A stretch of 42,997 nucleotides of DNA from Armatimonadota bacterium (GTDB taxonomy: Bacteria; Armatimonadota; UBA5829; DTLH01), in contig JACPPP010000211.1 of assembly GCA_016190935.1 (NCBI GenBank), forward strand, positions 1-42,997, read 5' to 3'. The translations under genes and the position numbers were made by a program. Below, one piece after another: positions 22,732 to 40,989 of this stretch. Within the stretch, counting starts at the first letter, position 1. Each line of letters opens with the position of its first letter. The notes beneath the pieces are model-generated. The model ran no database searches. It saw only the letters and a list, made by a program, of their open reading frames with translations, and was not told the origin of the DNA.

Positions 22732-23004
22732 TCACCGGTTCCTATACGTTGTCAACCGCTGATTTGTTTCCTGGTCACTCAACCCTTTTACCTCAAAGGT
22801 CTTGTCCCGGCTCTTTTCACCGGAGACGAGAGTGATTTGCGCTCGCTTGACATCCAGGACCTTGGCCAGGAACTCTATGCAGGCTTTGTTAGCAGCGCCC
22901 TCGACCGGCGGCGCGGTGAGCTTTATGGCAAGAACATCGTCCCGCCAGCCGATTATTTCGTCTTTTGATCCCCTCGGGGTTACTCTGACCTTCAGTCGCG
23001 CCAT
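22732..23004 (-). CDS. DUF167/YggU (UPF0235) family protein
   Basis: The 90-residue protein fits the UPF0235 family throughout: LKVRVTPRGSKDEIIGW at the N-terminus, KLTAPPVEGAANKACIEFLA in the middle, and ITLVSGEKSRDKTFEVKGL near the end. The family is a small conserved fold of unknown function, often beside yggT or proline-synthesis genes. A heptamer array starts 6 nt upstream of the start codon and leaves no recognisable ribosome-binding site. It is likely to be co-transcribed with the SEC-C gene. Confidence 0.88.
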   Translation of the reverse strand: MARLKVRVTPRGSKDEIIGWRDDVLAIKLTAPPVEGAANKACIEFLAKVLDVKRAQITLVSGEKSRDKTFEVKGLSDQETNQRLTTYRNR

Positions 23005-23010
23005 GGGAAG

Positions 23011-23165
23011 CTTTCAGCGTTCAGCTATCAGCCGTCAGCGGGGTGTTGGGTGTTGGGTGCTGGGTGCTGGTAAGAGTCATGGGACATGGGTCATGGGGCA
23101 TGGGAAGGCCCTCTGTTACCTGTTACCTGTTACCTGTTACCTGTCACCTGTTACCTGTTACCTCA
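23011..23165. repeat. Composite 22-unit heptamer array
   Basis: Read from 23011 in steps of seven, the words are CTTTCAG, CGTTCAG, CTATCAG, CCGTCAG, then TTGGGTG types, then GGGNCAT types, a two-word junction (GGGAAGG CCCTCTG), and finally TTACCTG repeated. The 7-nt register is unbroken across all the word changes. A second copy in inverse orientation lies at 39905-40012. Confidence 0.9.
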
Positions 23166-23167
23166 GC

Positions 23168-23624
23168 TTACCTCAGCCGCTTCAGTGCCACCAACGGCAG
23201 CAGCCGCTCGACGTCCTCCTTTTTTCCTATTTCTGTGCCATCGCTCATAGCAGTGGACGCGCCTGCCCATTGAGATAACCGCTATCTCGATCCCAAGCCG
23301 CACGAGTTCCTCCGCGGCATCTGCAACTTCTTCAACGGAAGATAGCTCTGCACTACAAAGTCACCGGGCTTCGTCCAGATTCGGCTTTATCATCATCGGA
23401 CAGGCAGGCATTCCCAGCTTGAGCGGTTCGCCGTCAGCATCAAGGATCGCGCGCGTCCCCACGGCCTGGGCTATTTCTATAAGCTCGCGATAGACCTCCG
23501 TATTGACTCCCTCTCCGCCTGCGTCGAGTTCCGTCCTATCGATCCGGTTGGTATCACCGAGGACGATACTCTTGACGTAGATGGTCTTGTCGAGGGTCGG
23601 GTTAAGCGTAACGGTGGTGATCAT
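23168..23624 (-). pseudogene. Scrambled 1-phosphofructokinase (PfkB family) remnant
   Basis: 1-phosphofructokinase makes fructose 1,6-bisphosphate. Here only pieces remain. The N-terminus is MITTVTLNPTLDKTIYVKSI to DAGGEGVN. It joins directly to what is normally the middle (RELIEIAQAVGTRAILDADG, MIKPNLDEA), and about 110 residues are missing between them. After a stop the next frame gives ELSSVEEVADAAEELVRLGI. A final piece in yet another frame gives DGTEIGKKEDVERLLPLVAL followed by KRLR and a stop at 23168. The catalytic GAGD segment is absent. The track ORF (23361-23624) is only the first part. It sits downstream of the aldolase gene, a sensible former operon. It cannot be functional as read. 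Confidence 0.85.
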
Positions 23625-23846
23625 ATGAGCGATGAGCTACGAGTTATGAGTTGTGAGTTGTGAGTTGTGAGTAACCATGTCATCCTGGGCAGTATATACT
23701 TGTCATCCTGTGCGTTGCGTTGGATCTACTCTCGGTTGCAGATCTCCTGCCACTTGAGGACAGATTCTTCGCTGTGCTCAGAATGACAGGACTTTTTGAC
23801 TTTTGGCTTTGGACTTTTGACTTTGCACTTGTCACTTGTCACTTCA
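23623..23846. repeat. Heptamer arrays flanking a dispersed palindrome
   Basis: Words ending in GAG (TTATGAG, TTGTGAG) run from 23623, overlapping the start codon of the kinase remnant. Between 23698 and 23790 lies an imperfect palindrome (TGTCATCCTG ... CTCAGAATGACA). From 23791 a second array of CTTTTGA/CTTGTCA-type words runs to 23846, 12 nt before the aldolase stop codon. Confidence 0.75.
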
Positions 23847-25595: not shown

Positions 25596-25677
25596 GATTT
25601 CAGATTTCAGATTGCAGATTGTAGATTGAACCGGAGGGATTTCAATCTGAAATCTAAAATCTCAAATCTGAAATCCC
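25596..25677. repeat. Inverted GATTTCA/AATCTGA heptamer arrays
   Basis: Five words (GATTTCA, GATTTCA, GATTGCA, GATTGTA, GATTGAA) are followed after a short spacer by complementary words (CTGAAAT, CTAAAAT, CTCAAAT). The result is a hairpin-forming array that ends 11 nt from the ribonuclease G stop codon. Confidence 0.85.
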
Positions 25678-27386: not shown

Positions 27387-27772
27387 CTATCACCTCCTTT
27401 CTTGTCTGTTTTTCATTGCAAAATGCTCCTTAAAAAGCTGTCAGCCGTCAGCTATCAGCAATCAGCCTCCGGCGGGGGCCGGGTGTCAGGGGCCAGGTGC
27501 TGGAGGGATTGCAGATTGAAGTCTTTACGATGGGTGGCTATCTACGAATCGCCGCCTATCATGTTTTTTGGTATTGCCCGTATAAAGCATAGTGGCTCCA
27601 GGTTCGGTTGTTTTGCCTCCAGAACCGCGGAGACGCGGAAGGCAATCGAGCCAAGGAAGGTTGGAATTCCGCGTCTCCATCGCTTCCCCGCTTCCCCGGT
27701 TCTGGTATCACGCGTTATCCGAGCAACACTTATTCCTTCAATCTAAAATCTGCAATCTAAAATCTAAAATCT
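27387..27772. repeat. Repeat-filled gap between radical SAM and ribonuclease G genes
   Basis: No gene is visible in these 386 bases. At 27438-27521 twelve consecutive 7-nt words run in one register: CTGTCAG, CCGTCAG, CTATCAG, CAATCAG, then CGGGGGC/CAGGGGC types, then ATTGCAG, ATTGAAG. At about 27613-27706 there is an inverted pair (CAGAACCGCGGAGACGCGGAA against TTCCGCGTCTCC and CGGTTCTGG). At 27740-27774 five AATCTAA-type words run into the radical SAM stop codon. Confidence 0.8.
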
Positions 27773-30328
27773 CTAGTACACCTTCACCCTATGAGCAAAA
27801 CGCAGCTCAAGACCGGGAGCAGTACACCTCAGCGCATCAACAAGTTCGCTCGGCCTCACGTTTGCGAGGCGGGCCCTGATGAGCGGCGCTTCGTCCTCCT
27901 GATCCGCTCTGAAGAGCGTTTCCACAGACTCTATACCGGGCCGGATGTCTATGCTCTTGCTGCCGTTCTCCTTCTTCCTTTCGACCACAACAGTGGCTTT
28001 CGAAAGCAGTTCGCGAGCGGCCGTATGTAGGTCGCTTTCCGACGTGCCGCATACACCTATCAGATACTCGCTTCCGCGGATATCGGGCGATCTCCGCCCA
28101 TCCACCTCCTCCGCCGCCCTGATAACAAGTCCGTCCGGCAGAGCGGAGTTAAGCGCGCGTACGAGTTCATCTGTGTCCACCCTGCTGTTAAGCTCTATAG
28201 TCATCGGCTCGGCTTCGCCAGTCGTGCCCACCGAAAGCTGGCTGTAGAACGACATTCGAGGTCTGGGATTAAACCCTTCGGAGTAGGCCACCGGGAGGCG
28301 GGACCTTCGCACAGCCCGCTCGAATGTGCGGACCACGTCCATGTGGGAGAGCCATCTCAGGCTGCGGTCCTTTGCGTATCTCAGCCGGTACCACACTCTT
28401 TCGACAGGGTGCGGACTATCTTCGACAGGAGCGGTTTTTCGCGCCTCCTCCACAGCTTCGCGGTCACCCTGGAACGTCTCTACCGGCTCTTGGAGGTTCA
28501 GCGGACAGGGATCATCAACTTTGCCAGCCAGGAACTCCTTTATTCCACAATTCAGACATGTGCCGTATCTACAGTCTATGTTCTCTTTTGACCTGTCTGC
28601 GAGCCTGTCCTGAATGGAAAGCCACCTTTTGGTCACACCGCAGTCGATGTGGTCCCACGGCAGCGGCTCGTCGTAACCGATTCTTCTATGCGCTATCGAA
28701 TCGGTGCCAACCTGCGTCTCCCGGAATGCCGCGCGCCATCTCTCGGCATCGAACTGATCGTCCCAACCGTCGAATTTAGCGCCAATCTCCCAGGCGCGCA
28801 GGATCGCTGGACCGATCTCCCGGCCCGCTCGTGCCAGCACCGCCTCAAGCTCGCTCATCTCGGTATCGTGCCACGAGAGCGACACCGCCCGCCCACGCAG
28901 GCGAGTCTTAAGCAGACCGATCTTCCTATCAAGCTCATCTATCCTGTCCTGCGCCCTCCACTGGAAGGGAGTGTGCGGCTTCGGGACGAAGGATGACACT
29001 CCCACGTTTATTTTGAGCGGCCTTTTCCGCGCCCTGGCAAGCTCCAGCACCTTGTGCACCAGGCCGGCTATGGCGATCACGTCCTCATCGGTCTCAGTGG
29101 GCAGCCCAATCACAAAGTAGAGCTTGATCTTCCTCCACCCGCATCTGAGCGCCTCGTCTACCGCTTCCAGCAGATCGCCCTCCGTCACATTCTTGTTTAT
29201 CGCATCCCGCAGCCGCTGAGTTCCAGCCTCCGGCGCGAACGTAAGCCCGGTCTTGCGGACCCGCTGGATCTCCGCTGCAAACTGCACGCAGCCGGCGTCC
29301 GCCCTGATCGATGGCAGCGAGACCCCAACCCTGTCGCCCTCGTGTTTCTGGACAAGATCGTGCACAAGCCGACCGATCTCCGAATAGTCGGCGCTCGATA
29401 GCGACATCAGGCCAACCTCGTCGTAGCCCGTGCTTGAGATTAAGGTCTCTGCCTGCTCCTCCAGTCTGGCCGGTGATCTCTCTCTCACAGGTCTCGTGAT
29501 CATCCCCGCCTGACAGAACCGACACGTCCTTGTGCATCCCCGCATAATCTCGACCGCTGCCCGGTCGTGTATTGTCTCAAGGAACGGCACTACGACACTG
29601 TCCGGATAGTCAGCCGTCTCAAAATCGGTGACTACGGTCCTGCTGACATTCTGCGGAATATCGTCCTCAACTGGTTCAAGAGTCTTGCCCGTAGATCGGT
29701 AGAACGAGGGAACATAGACCCCCTCTGTTCGCGCCAACGCCCGAAGCAGTTCTCTGCGGTCGGCTGTGTGGTCTTTATATACATCGACGATTCTGTGCAC
29801 TACCTCTTCGCCGTCTCCGATGACGAAGGCGTCGATGAACATAGCCATAGGCTCGGGGTTGACTGTGCAGTGGCCGCCGGCGATGACCAGCGGATGAGAT
29901 TCGTCTCGATTATCCGAGCGGATTGGGATTCCGGCGAGGTCGAGCATATTGATTACGTTGGTGTAGGTTAGCTCGTACGCGAGAGAAAAACCGATGATAT
30001 CGAAGTCCCGAACCGGTGCGAACGATTCGAGCGCGTACAAAGGAATACGCGCCACCCGCAACTCGTTTTCCATATCCGCGGCTGGCGCAAAGACACGTTC
30101 CGCCGCCGTATCGTCCCGGCGGTTTAGAGTGTGGTAGAGGATCTTTAGCCCGAGGTTGGACATTCCGACTTCGTACACGTCCGGGAAGGCAAGAGCAAAA
30201 AGAACATCCACCATAGAGCGGTCCTTTTTGACCTCGCCGAGTTCCCCGCCCGTGTAGCGCGCCGGTTTGCTCACCCTCGGCAGGATACTCTCCACCTGGT
30301 CTCGTATCCCGGTGAGCCGGAAATCCAA
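27773..30328 (-). CDS. Radical SAM protein fused to DUF2344 (TIGR03960/TIGR03936 type)
   Basis: The 851-residue protein has an N-terminal B12-binding-like region (about 40-200). The radical SAM core at about 255-490 has the iron-sulfur motif CTRTCRFC (Cys265, 269, 272). A cysteine-containing segment follows (CRYGTCLNCGI). The C-terminal DUF2344 domain starts at about 660 (YRLRYAKDRSLRWLSHMDVV, SEGFNPRPRMSFY). Members are often encoded next to ribonuclease G and ribosomal protein genes, but their reaction is not established. An RNA or ribosomal substrate is only a contextual guess. The start is a TTG with GAGGAAG about 10 nt upstream. The stop codon lies partly in a heptamer array. Confidence 0.9.
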   Translation of the reverse strand: MDFRLTGIRDQVESILPRVSKPARYTGGELGEVKKDRSMVDVLFALAFPDVYEVGMSNLGLKILYHTLNRRDDTAAERVFAPAADMENELRVARIPLYALESFAPVRDFDIIGFSLAYELTYTNVINMLDLAGIPIRSDNRDESHPLVIAGGHCTVNPEPMAMFIDAFVIGDGEEVVHRIVDVYKDHTADRRELLRALARTEGVYVPSFYRSTGKTLEPVEDDIPQNVSRTVVTDFETADYPDSVVVPFLETIHDRAAVEIMRGCTRTCRFCQAGMITRPVRERSPARLEEQAETLISSTGYDEVGLMSLSSADYSEIGRLVHDLVQKHEGDRVGVSLPSIRADAGCVQFAAEIQRVRKTGLTFAPEAGTQRLRDAINKNVTEGDLLEAVDEALRCGWRKIKLYFVIGLPTETDEDVIAIAGLVHKVLELARARKRPLKINVGVSSFVPKPHTPFQWRAQDRIDELDRKIGLLKTRLRGRAVSLSWHDTEMSELEAVLARAGREIGPAILRAWEIGAKFDGWDDQFDAERWRAAFRETQVGTDSIAHRRIGYDEPLPWDHIDCGVTKRWLSIQDRLADRSKENIDCRYGTCLNCGIKEFLAGKVDDPCPLNLQEPVETFQGDREAVEEARKTAPVEDSPHPVERVWYRLRYAKDRSLRWLSHMDVVRTFERAVRRSRLPVAYSEGFNPRPRMSFYSQLSVGTTGEAEPMTIELNSRVDTDELVRALNSALPDGLVIRAAEEVDGRRSPDIRGSEYLIGVCGTSESDLHTAARELLSKATVVVERKKENGSKSIDIRPGIESVETLFRADQEDEAPLIRARLANVRPSELVDALRCTAPGLELRFAHRVKVY

Positions 30329-35337: not shown

Positions 35338-35485
35338 ACTCCCATCGGTGCTTACAACTCAAAACCAGTACAATTCAATTGTATCTTTCTGCTTCGCACG
35401 CGATTCGGAGATCGCGCGTGATCGATGGGATGCCGCACGGGGACGTGCGGCACATTGGGCCCGTCTCGCGCCGGGCCGGGCCATC

Positions 35486-35534
35486 AAAACTCATAACTCA
35501 AAACTCGTCGCTCATTGCTCATCGCTCGTCATTG
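35486..35534. repeat. AAAACTC/ATTGCTC heptamer array overlapping a gene end
   Basis: Seven words (AAAACTC, ATAACTC, AAAACTC, GTCGCTC, ATTGCTC, ATCGCTC, GTCATTG) run in register. They supply the stop codon and the last six or so codons of the M48 protease gene. Confidence 0.85.
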
Positions 35535-36675
35535 CACTTGTCTTGACCCAATCGCTCCACAGCGCATAGCGAACGGCCTCCGCCGCACGGGCAAGCAGCG
35601 TAGTGGGCGGCAGCCCTATGGCAGCGGAATCGGCGGAAGTAATCTGTAGGATCACTCGCTTGCGCCCGGAGAGCTGCATCGTGGAGGGATTGTCTCTCAG
35701 TTCAAACGGGCTCAGACCTTCCCGCAGCAGCTCGTTTATTGCGGCCCGCGTCTTCTGCGCCCGTTGATAGGATGACACTCCGTTATCATCCGCGACAGTG
35801 CAGACCTTTCTGCCCGCAAGACTCACCGTGGACAAGTTCCTTCCGTTCACAGTAGTCAGACTGATCTCAGCAGCGGCCAGGTCAGCGGCTTGCCGCTTGT
35901 CAACCTGGACCCCGAGATCGGCCAATTGTTGAGCAACTCGTGTCGAACGCTCAACACTTGGCGGGTGCGTCTGGAATATTCCCAGATTTCGCACCTCTCC
36001 GCGTTTCTGCTGATAGTCCGTCAACTGTTCGAGGAACTGCAGTATGCCGCGCGGGTCATAGCCTGCTTTGTGCGCGTAGATCACGCCTGTGCTGTCTGCA
36101 TCGAACTCCGCCGTTTGGCCGTAACCGGTCAACCGCGCTGTCCGCACGAATTGCGCGCCGTAGAGGATGTTGGTCAGGTCCCTGCCGTTCATCTTGCTCA
36201 GAGCGGCAGTCAAGGCGATCAGCGCAACTACCGAGTCCATCTTCGATTGCTTGCGCATCAAGAACATCATGTGATGGTGCGATGCGTGGGCTATCTCGTG
36301 GCCGAGCACCCCGGCAAGCTCATCGTCCGACTTCACGAAGTCGATCAGTCCTCTATAGACGTAGATGAAGCCCCCCGGCAGAGAGAAGGCGTTGATGTCC
36401 TGATTGTCTATGACTTTGAAGCGATAGTCGAAATCCGAAAGATCGGATGAACCATACTCGGCAGGAACTTCGTGCGCCTTTGCTACCTGTGCGAGCTTTA
36501 CGCCGATGCGGTTTACACGTTCCACGATATCAGGATCTTCGACCAGCTTGGCCTCTTTTTCGAACTGTTCGGCATTTTCTCGCCCGATCTTCACCTCCTT
36601 GGACTCGTTGGAAAACGAGGGAGTAATTGCGGCAATTATGATTACGAGAACAACGAGCGTCTTGCTGCGGAACAT
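35512..36675 (-). CDS. M48-family zinc metalloprotease (BepA/YfgC-like)
   Basis: The 387-residue exported protease has a signal peptide (TLVVLVIIIAAITPSFS). The zinc site is HEIAH (His126, Glu127, His130), with Glu190 in AEFDAD as third ligand. NAFSLPGGFIYVYRGLI is the usual strand before the active helix. M48 proteins of this type act in envelope protein quality control. The C-terminal part (about 270-387) has no obvious TPRs and is unrecognised. GGAGGG precedes the ATG. The last residues (MTSDEQ) and the stop codon are encoded by a heptamer array, so the natural C-terminus has probably been altered. Confidence 0.9.
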   Translation of the reverse strand: MFRSKTLVVLVIIIAAITPSFSNESKEVKIGRENAEQFEKEAKLVEDPDIVERVNRIGVKLAQVAKAHEVPAEYGSSDLSDFDYRFKVIDNQDINAFSLPGGFIYVYRGLIDFVKSDDELAGVLGHEIAHASHHHMMFLMRKQSKMDSVVALIALTAALSKMNGRDLTNILYGAQFVRTARLTGYGQTAEFDADSTGVIYAHKAGYDPRGILQFLEQLTDYQQKRGEVRNLGIFQTHPPSVERSTRVAQQLADLGVQVDKRQAADLAAAEISLTTVNGRNLSTVSLAGRKVCTVADDNGVSSYQRAQKTRAAINELLREGLSPFELRDNPSTMQLSGRKRVILQITSADSAAIGLPPTTLLARAAEAVRYALWSDWVKTSAMTSDEQ

Positions 36676-39025: not shown

Positions 39026-39910
39026 ATGCAAATCATACCCGCGCGATGTTGTGCAAAGATCAATCTGACGCTTGATGTTCTTGACCGCCGTGCGGACGGC
39101 TACCATAATATCGAGAGCGTCATGCAGTCGATAGACCTTGCGGATGCGCTGACTGTTCAGACACCGCCTGGAGCAGACATTGAGGTTATGGTAGACGTTA
39201 CAGGCGTGCCGGGTGGCCCGGAAAACACTGTGTACACTGCCGCCAGGCTCTTCAGGGAGGCTTCAGGCTTAACCACAGGCATCAAAGCGTCGATCACCAA
39301 GCGGATTCCGGCGGAGGCGGGCTTGGGGGGCGGGTCGAGCGACGCAGCCGGGGCGCTTCGGGCGCTGAATACACTCTTCGGCTCACCTCTTTCGGACATG
39401 GATTTGGCTGTTCTGGCATCGAGAATCGGCTCGGATGTTCCCTACTTTCTGGTAGGGGGCACAGCGGTTGTGAGCGGCCGGGGTGAGATCGTCAGGAGGC
39501 TGCCGGACGCTCCCGAAATGCAACTGCTCGTAGTGAAGCCTGCTTTTGGGGTCAGCACCGCCTGGGCCTATAAGAGTCTTGCGGCGTCCCAGAAAAGACA
39601 CAGCGGGTCATCCGAAGTGATAATAGACGCAATTATGAGAGGAGATCGATCGAGCGTTGTAGAACACCTTCATAACGACTTTCAGGAGATTGTAGTGGCT
39701 GACCACCAGGAGGTCGCCGAAGTAAAGCGCGATATGGCCGGCCTGGGCGCGGAGGCCTGTCTGCTTTGCGGAAGTGGTTCCGCGGTCTTTGGTGTCTTCC
39801 ATACGGCGGACGATGCTCACCGGGCCTGTGCTGCGCTCAAGCACAAGTATCCCTTTTCAGCCGCAGTCGGCACGACAACGAGCGCGATTACGATAGACGG
39901 AACGAGGTAA
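39026..39910 (+). CDS. ispE: 4-diphosphocytidyl-2-C-methyl-D-erythritol kinase
   Basis: IspE phosphorylates CDP-methylerythritol in the non-mevalonate isoprenoid pathway. The 294-residue GHMP kinase has the N-terminal ARCCAKINLTLDVLDRRADGYH (quoted in part), the ATP-binding loop PAEAGLGGGSSDAAGAL at about 95-111, GSDVPYFLVGGTA with the catalytic Asp137, and the C-terminal CLLCGSGSAVFGVF. Length and all motifs are normal. There is no clear ribosome-binding site. The last codon and the TAA stop lie in the first unit of an AGGTAAC array. It may be transcribed with the nucleotidyltransferase that follows. Confidence 0.95.
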   Translation: MQIIPARCCAKINLTLDVLDRRADGYHNIESVMQSIDLADALTVQTPPGADIEVMVDVTGVPGGPENTVYTAARLFREASGLTTGIKASITKRIPAEAGLGGGSSDAAGALRALNTLFGSPLSDMDLAVLASRIGSDVPYFLVGGTAVVSGRGEIVRRLPDAPEMQLLVVKPAFGVSTAWAYKSLAASQKRHSGSSEVIIDAIMRGDRSSVVEHLHNDFQEIVVADHQEVAEVKRDMAGLGAEACLLCGSGSAVFGVFHTADDAHRACAALKHKYPFSAAVGTTTSAITIDGTR

Positions 39911-40012
39911 CAGGTGACAGGTGGTAGGTAACAGGTAACAGGTAACAGAGGGTCTTCCCATGCCCCATGACCCATGACCTATCACCCGACACCCAACACC
40001 CAACACCCAACA
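39905..40012. repeat. Composite heptamer array, inverse copy of 23011-23165
   Basis: Six AGGTAAC-type words are followed by a two-word junction (AGAGGGTCTTCCCA), three CCCATGA types and three CCCAACA words. Its reverse complement gives GGGTGTT, CATGGG and TGTTACC words in the same order as the array at 23039-23165, with a junction differing at one base. Confidence 0.9.
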
Positions 40013-40018
40013 AACGCA

Positions 40019-40777
40019 ATGGAAGTTAACGCGGTAATACTGGCAGGAGCCCCGGCGGACCCAGAGATGTGCCCCGGGGAGAATACGATCAGTCGGGCCA
40101 TGCTTCGCATTGGGCCGAAGACGATGCTCCAGTGGGTGGTTGATGCCCTGATCTCCGCAGAGTCCATAGACAGAATCATCGCCGTGGGCGATGTGGCCGC
40201 CGATTCGCTGGACGCGACGGTCATTCCGGGATCATCTTTCCTCGAGAACCTGATGCTGGGAGTGGAGGCAAGCGGCTCGGATGAGCGCGTGCTTGTGCTC
40301 AGCTCGGATATTCCTCTGATCGGCCCTCAGGCGGTGGACGACTTCGTCACGCGCGCGCTCGATTCCGGCGCCGAGATGTGCTATCCCATCATCCGGGCTG
40401 AGGACTGCCTTGCGAAGTACCCGGCTTTGAAAAGGACCTTCTTGAGAACAAGTGAGGGGTCCTGGACGGGCGGAAACATGCTGCTTGTCAGCCCCACGTT
40501 CCTGCGCCGGAACAGGGAGAGGATATCTCAGGCCTATGCGGCTAGGAAGAAGCCGCTTGCGCTCGCCGCTATGCTCGGTCCGGGCGTTTTGGTGCGGGCC
40601 GTTGCAGCGCAGCTCTTTTGGCCGGCCCTCCTACCAATTTCGAGGCTTGAGCAGGTAGCCTCAAAGCTCGTTGGAGGCCATGTTGTGGCTGTCGTGACTC
40701 ACTACCCGGAGATAGGTGAGGACGTGGATAAGCTGGCCGACCTGGAAGCTGTGCGGAGGGAGTTGGGGGGAAGTTGA
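40019..40777 (+). CDS. MobA-like NTP transferase domain protein
   Basis: The 252-residue protein has a GT-A nucleotidyltransferase fold. It begins VNAVILAGAPADPE, then LRIGPKTMLQWVVDALISAE, with VLVLSSDIPLIGPQAVDDFV as the metal-binding strand and TGGNMLLVSPTFL. The usual G-G-x-S-x-R-[MF]-G loop is replaced by GAPADPEMCPGENTISR, so nucleotide handling may differ from MobA, GlmU or IspD. The track start (39974) reads through the heptamer array, giving HPTPNTQHPTNA. The ATG at 40019 starts the domain, but no ribosome-binding site precedes it. Proximity to ispE hints at an isoprenoid link, unproven. Confidence 0.75.
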   Translation: MEVNAVILAGAPADPEMCPGENTISRAMLRIGPKTMLQWVVDALISAESIDRIIAVGDVAADSLDATVIPGSSFLENLMLGVEASGSDERVLVLSSDIPLIGPQAVDDFVTRALDSGAEMCYPIIRAEDCLAKYPALKRTFLRTSEGSWTGGNMLLVSPTFLRRNRERISQAYAARKKPLALAAMLGPGVLVRAVAAQLFWPALLPISRLEQVASKLVGGHVVAVVTHYPEIGEDVDKLADLEAVRRELGGS

Positions 40778-40784
40778 AACGCGT

Positions 40785-40989
40785 CCTTCGACAGGCTCAG
40801 GTTGCGCGGATTGTACGGATTGCGCGGAAGAAGCTATCAGCAATCAGCCGTCAGCATTCGCCAGGGGCCGGGAGCCGGGGGCCAGGGTCCGGACGAATGT
40901 CCGAGAGACACGCGCCGGGGAGGAATCTCCCCGGCCATCGATACCCAACCCGAGTAAGAGCGATCTAAAATCTAAAATCTAAAATCTAA
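40785..40989. repeat. Mixed repeats between nucleotidyltransferase and comF
   Basis: In order, there is a CCTTCGACAGGCTCAGG palindrome (40785-40801), three 9-nt units (GCGCGGATT types), and in-register heptamers CTATCAG, CAATCAG, CCGTCAG, CATTCGC, CAGGGGC, CGGGAGC, CGGGGGC, CAGGGTC (40834-40889). Next come a GCCGGGGAG/CTCCCCGGC hairpin (40914-40936) and four ATCTAAA words (40963-40989). No gene is visible in the 247-bp gap. Confidence 0.85.

Follow-up and report, generated by a model that had tools for sequence, protein, structure and literature searches.

Heptanucleotide arrays abutting gene ends in an Armatimonadota genome share a polarity and supply the stop codon in a minority of cases

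The gene for an M48 peptidase in an Armatimonadota genome ends inside a tandem array of 7-base units. This locus raises the question of whether such arrays are directed to stop codons, grow in place at gene borders, or arrive there as elements whose effect on the coding sequence is incidental. Heptamer arrays have been known for decades, and we know of no settled explanation for the period of seven or for the hugging of gene ends. The window, i.e., the whole stretch of DNA analysed, is contig C163 (42,997 nt) of a 3.84 Mb, 366-contig Armatimonadota metagenome-assembled genome (MAG) that is 92% complete. Arrays were found by a period-7 scan and TRF; the period scan and the genome-wide statistics cover 736 kb (~19% of the genome), a sample that includes ten stretches picked from contigs holding the composite element described below. 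Genes were called with a purpose-written dicodon model, in which stops are model-independent once an ORF is accepted and starts are model-dependent. The RNase G of the window is best matched by Armatimonadota MAGs, at 84% to JAKPFN010000071.1; a search for same-genus genomes returned this genome only. The JAKPFN genome, array-poor and of the same family, is the main empty-site reference (~530 kb used), and the empty-site comparison is thus with one close relative at mostly 50–84% protein identity. An entry titled Methanoregulaceae archaeon (L056, JADZEW010000001.1) also has an Armatimonadota-like RNase G locus and is likely mislabelled or a mixed bin.

Three genes of the window had been proposed by a first-pass annotation to take their stop codons from arrays. 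The features concerned are as follows.

35484–35530, minus strand: heptamer array of the GAGCGAT/GAGTTAT type, sense to the M48 gene (period-7 scan, TRF)
35512–36675, minus strand: M48 peptidase gene with an array-coded C-terminus (Pfam Peptidase_M48, 2.8e-32)
39026–39910, plus strand: ispE, whose last codon AGG and stop TAA form the first array unit (GHMP kinase domains; C-terminal comparison)
39905–40012, plus strand: composite element occupying the ispE–nucleotidyltransferase junction, in the order (AGGTAAC)n–AGAGGGYCTTC–(CCCATGA)n–(CACCCAA)n (sequence)
40019–40777, plus strand: MobA-like nucleotidyltransferase gene, native Shine-Dalgarno (SD) position displaced by the element (Pfam NTP_transf_3; start aligned with L084; gene call)
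27740–27772, minus strand: GATTTTA-type array directly after the radical SAM stop, outside the gene (period-7 scan; stop conserved in L004)
27773–30328, minus strand: radical SAM/DUF2344 gene with an unaltered C-terminus (Pfam; comparison with the relative)

In the case of the M48 peptidase, the proposal holds: the last 19 nt of the ORF are array, and the terminal T-S-D-E-Q together with the TGA, about five codons plus the stop, is array-coded (array 35484–35530, ORF end 35512). The C-terminus reads WSDWVKTSAMTSDEQ-stop here versus WSDWVKTGWNNSELYQ...IEK-stop in the relative L133; the tail of the array-poor relative, WSDWVKTGWNNSELYQAALTNSNRPIGAGSGTARIEK-stop, is not necessarily ancestral, and the tail is a variable region because other relatives differ again. 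The M48 stop of L134 (E14_metabat.bin.108 genome) also lies within a heptamer-like run, GACAGTGAACGGTGAACAGTGACC, an independent stop-in-repeat case. A second M48-like fragment in the same genome as the window (L003, G000:C339:6107-6604) has two in-frame stops and is likely a pseudogene. GC-rich palindromes (e.g., GCCGCACGGGGACGTGCGGC and GCCGGGGAGATTCCTCCCCGGC) recur between arrays at 35400–35483, at 40890–40940, and in many intergenic regions, and look like REP-type hairpins or terminators. IspE likewise ends, as had been proposed, with AGG TAA as the first array unit (39905–39910); its C-terminus is SAITIDGTR-stop here versus SAIMFSGV-stop in the relative, with the stop shifted by one codon. 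The claim fails for the radical SAM gene, since its TAG (27773–27775) adjoins the array (27740–27772) at 0 nt without overlap, and the array-free relative has the same stop (FAHRIKVY-stop versus FAHRVKVY-stop here).

The window contains 18 arrays. In the 736 kb scan, 132 arrays have a period of 7 and 60 a period of 14, a harmonic of 7, versus two to four each at periods 4–6, 8–13, and 15; seven is the only enriched repeat period. About ten heptamer families occur in this genome. In 293 kb of the array-poor relative, ~2 arrays of period 7 were counted. The predominance of period 7 recurs in a set of 80 RNase G loci from the phylum (nine arrays versus 0–2, the harmonic 14 apart), with heptamers that differ from those of this genome, and (GGTAACA)3 has 105 matches here and 0 in 290 other genomes of the phylum. 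The arrays are thus head-to-tail 7-base units above other periods, intergenic, dispersed, and taxon-specific, as in the heptanucleotide LSSR/STRR arrays. Matches to AGGTAAC-like arrays occur in plasmids of Enterobacter, Klebsiella, Erwinia, and Anabaena sp. 90 as well, which could be chance or convergence. A LacPavin Armatimonadota MAG (L010/G009) has unrelated heptamers at the same two junctions (L010 5663-5759; L258 880-910), with the radical SAM stop within an AGTTATA array and the nucleotidyltransferase ATG within an AACTTAT array.

The arrays sit in the gaps between genes, often ~10 nt or less from a gene 3' end. Among 130 arrays scoring at least 15, no contact with a CDS is made by 103, whereas 24 run into a 3' end, two into a 5' end, and one lies inside a CDS; overlaps rarely exceed 20 nt, and CDS account for 7% of array bases though coding DNA makes up 81%. 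Counting only the first array in the 150 nt that follow a stop, 23 overlap the stop, 20 lie at 0–10 nt, and 26 farther away; the 20/46 within 10 nt contrast with 11.7% expected from uniform placement within the relative's intergenic lengths (p = 6e-8). The abutment on gene ends is therefore real. It also occurs at tRNA genes:

409–637, no strand assigned: arrays 409–433, 526–558, and 606–637, 3–4 nt from the ends of tRNA-Tyr (437–521) and tRNA-Thr (641–716)

Because tRNA ends are abutted too, the abutment is not about stop codons. An account in which the elements target stop codons, or exist to supply them, would draw on the excess of arrays between −20 and +10 nt of stops and on the stops carried by many sense-strand units, and is very improbable: tRNA ends are abutted likewise, most native stops are unchanged, and stop triplets are no commoner on the sense strand of arrays 0–30 nt downstream (9 sense versus 10 antisense). 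The sense-stop excess of 17:2 concerns the overlapping arrays, where selection forces it, and stop-codon targeting was rejected on the 9:10 ratio. Furthermore, since 7 equals 1 modulo 3, any unit whose sense strand carries TAA, TAG, or TGA stops every frame within 21 nt; stop supply follows from period and sequence, and therefore no targeting is needed.

Comparison with the array-poor relative divides the genes into two groups. Altered tails are found in five genes, M48, IspE, L185 32-727, L213 5625-6137, and L183 11746-12462. The same stop and C-terminus are retained in the radical SAM gene, L182 3145-3987, L184 14339-15208, L192 8757-9758, L197 1893-2696, L213 6260-7129, L237 6210-7937, and L237 10855-12180. 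Stop supply is a minority side effect, because the radical SAM gene and most other genes tested keep the C-terminus and stop of the relative, the outcome that the first-pass annotation had named as refuting; M48, IspE, and the three others with altered tails do not. Junctions lengthen from 4 to 108, 16 to 191, 33 to 236, and 82 to 389 nt between the relative and this genome, and the arrays are gains relative to the same-family genome. Insertion into or growth at gene borders, tolerated as far as expendable codons, had been suggested by the first-pass annotation; the empty junctions and the 7% of array bases in CDS support this part.

Similar abutment is found at the 5' side of genes, where arrays had been noted to leave no ribosome-binding site.

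22732–23004, minus strand: DUF167 gene, no SD-like motif beside the array (Pfam DUF167; sequence)
23009–23163, minus strand: a further copy of the composite element, the window's second, continuing into GCTGATA units (sequence)
23625–23672, minus strand: array abutting the ATG (23622–23624) of a kinase remnant (sequence)

All three proposed contacts are confirmed. At DUF167 (start 23004), the composite copy stands 4 nt away and no SD-like motif is present; at the kinase remnant, the array touches the ATG at 0 nt; and at the nucleotidyltransferase, the array stops 6 nt short of the start at 40019, which the aligned sequence of the relative supports over the ORF start at 39974. The ispE–nucleotidyltransferase spacing is 108 nt here versus 4 nt in the relative, where AGGAG lies inside the ispE end ahead of the nucleotidyltransferase. 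The ORF at 23361–23624 is short, seemingly lacks its middle part, has no Pfam match, and is probably a remnant; its beginning resembles a 1-phosphofructokinase-type kinase. Across the sample, an SD-like motif is present in 1/11 genes whose start is within 12 nt of an array, compared with 275/429 otherwise (p = 3e-4), so that the motif is lacking in 10 of 11 such genes. The junction grown from 16 to 191 nt keeps the SD GGAGGAAA beside its start.

The unifying rule of placement is polarity: largely whatever the heptamer, the G-rich strand points inward from the edge of the gene. Each main family keeps an almost constant orientation towards the upstream gene, as in GATTTCA (16:0) and AGGTAAC (13:0), while CATTTTG (8:1) and GTCACTT (6:0) lie the opposite way. 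Family-consistent orientation is found in 63/69 arrays (p < 5.1e-5, random flips with the majority re-chosen) and in 31/31 arrays located 0–30 nt after a stop (p ~1e-4 or below). The consensus direction of a family was set from the data, for which the permutation re-chooses the majority, and the G-skew test is independent of these directions. In intergenic regions (IGRs) between co-directional genes holding at least two arrays, both outer arrays point inward in the same sense (19:3 at the 3' side and 21:1 at the 5' side). The G-rich strand runs inward in 62:8 cases at 3' borders and in 26:1 cases at 5' borders of multi-array IGRs, compared with 115:72 and 45:162, respectively, in array-free IGRs (p = 1.7e-5 and 1.6e-14). 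The G-rich strand is accordingly sense after stops and antisense before starts, as in the rule described for GGGAATC-type repeats. In a check against the replication strand, orientation flips with gene strand in 5/6 same-contig pairs, too small a number to discard a replication-strand explanation, and same-strand pairs are concordant 3:2.

A polarity that follows transcription would be expected if the arrays were functional RNA-level elements under selection, acting in 3'-UTR processing or termination or in translation control, with the transcribed strand setting the polarity. The scarcity of SD motifs in array-abutted genes (1/11 versus 275/429) is consistent with this, as is one inverted pair in the window:

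25596–25675, no strand assigned: two GATTTCA arrays in inverted orientation, located downstream of RNase G, with a strong predicted hairpin (RNA fold z = −7.8)

A translational or regulatory role has also been put forward for TAACTGA (PMC4679880), and such roles have been considered in the case of GGGAATC (PMC4692102). However, the same operons do without arrays in the array-poor relative, another genome has different heptamers at the same junctions, and single or composite arrays fold little (z = −2.1, −0.6, and +0.7); an RNA-level function as the general explanation is therefore unlikely. A quadruplex function was rejected as well, since most families have no G-tracts: no GGG run, of which four would be needed, occurs in the common families GATTTCA, AGGTAAC, CATTTTG, and GAGCGAT, and quadruplex formation is consequently not required for the placement.

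In addition, part of the array load consists of copies of composite modules with a conserved non-heptamer linker, and one such element recurs at ispE and at DUF167. Its order is often (GAGCGAT)n, then (AGGTAAC)n AGAGGGNCTTC (CCCATGA)n CCTTACC (CACCCAA)n, and often (GCTGATA)n. The composite has 42 matches, and the linker AACAGAGGGNCTTCCCATG occurs in 65 copies within two mismatches genome-wide, compared with 0 for the reversed control. Between co-directional genes, the composite lies along transcription in 23 cases and against it in four (p = 3e-4). Its two halves have mutually inverted polarity, and weak self-folding is predicted for the ispE copy (z = −2.1).

Such an arrangement bears directly on replication slippage in place, in which a short native seed at each gene end would be extended without module dispersal. 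The native flanks at two loci share bases with the start of the array (GGATAGGC and TAGCTG), as slippage from a seed would predict, and the exclusive use of period 7 accords with the polymerase slippage put forward by Mrazek (cited in PMC4679880). In-place slippage is nevertheless quite improbable as the whole account: a fixed 19-base linker, itself present in 65 copies, repeatedly joins the same arrays in the same order, and gains reach ~300 nt with non-repeat hairpins. The fixed order and linker point to the copying of pre-formed modules over independent slippage at each site. No transposase and no target-site duplication could be linked to the elements. RAYT-associated REP/BIME elements are small dispersed intergenic elements of inverted polarity; Y1 transposase genes (PF01797) are present here too, but the elements are built of heptamer arrays, and the Y1 genes do not discriminate because the array-poor relative also has them. 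Dispersal of a retroelement type by an own reverse transcriptase was rejected, with no PF00078 match above cut-off in this 92% complete MAG.

Taken as a whole, the arrays are probably best explained as lineage-specific intergenic heptanucleotide-array elements. An element landing just before a native stop writes a new tail of up to ~6 codons with its own stop, as in M48, IspE, and the three other genes. Deeper insertions into genes would be purged by selection, leaving the borders as the edge of tolerance; arrays may lengthen by slippage, and a strand-asymmetric process tied to transcription or to the gene boundary may set the polarity. Besides the absence of an element-linked transposase or target-site duplication, two observations weigh against this explanation: neutral insertion alone does not predict polarity relative to transcription, and the shared bases at array starts also fit growth in place. 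The interpretation first given to this locus is partly supported, being sound but incomplete; it did not include the polarity rule, the dispersed composite, or the like abutment on tRNA genes.

The placement rule has precedent. The GGGAATC/GGGGA(C/T)T repeats of Xanthomonas and Nostoc, as described in PMC4692102, have a period of 7 and are dispersed and intergenic with many inverted pairs, and Rehm and co-workers place the G-rich strand of the quadruplex-forming GGGAATC on the coding strand in the 0–50 bp that follow stops, overlaps included, and upstream of starts on the non-coding strand. The arrays here resemble them in period, intergenic dispersal, inverted pairs, and G-strand placement. 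However, that system is one quadruplex-capable family type, whereas here ~10 families, most without G-tracts, share the same polarity, composite modules carry a fixed linker, and a same-family relative is without arrays at the same junctions. The TAACTGA direct repeats of Beggiatoaceae, some Cyanobacteria, and Bacteroidetes contain stops in all frames, a point made by MacGregor, who gives an ORF-end overlap limit of 18 nt, and lie near start codons mostly without ribosome binding sites (PMC4679880). The arrays here are likewise stop-bearing heptamers that overlap ORF ends and stand near starts without such sites. In contrast to TAACTGA, a single family mostly at starts, many families here lie mainly at 3' ends and array-free orthologs were compared; the TAACTGA unit is not among the families found here. 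Cyanobacterial STRR/LSSR, known here from a mention of Calothrix heptamers in PMC4692102 and the citation of Mrazek in PMC4679880, are similarly 7-base tandem, intergenic, and taxon-specific; the present arrays differ in phylum, composite order, and a quantified positional rule. Beyond the coverage of the available parts of PMC4692102 and PMC4679880, the present analysis adds a further phylum, many families under one polarity, and composite modules, and its ortholog comparisons show stop replacement to be a minority outcome.

Some 10 families under one polarity, together with an array-poor relative, allow sequence-dependent effects (quadruplex, stops) to be separated from sequence-independent ones, and comparing orthologous junctions makes the question of array placement testable. 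The arrays represent a simple route by which repeats can rewrite protein C-termini and remove Shine-Dalgarno sites, and MAG annotation near them can choose false starts, e.g., the ORF at 39974. We tentatively raise, while leaning against it, a sequence-independent polarity law for bacterial heptamer arrays that spans CDS and tRNA borders in unrelated phyla; if true, it would imply that arbitrary 7-base repeats are written or selected at gene ends by a process that is strand-specific and probably coupled to transcription.
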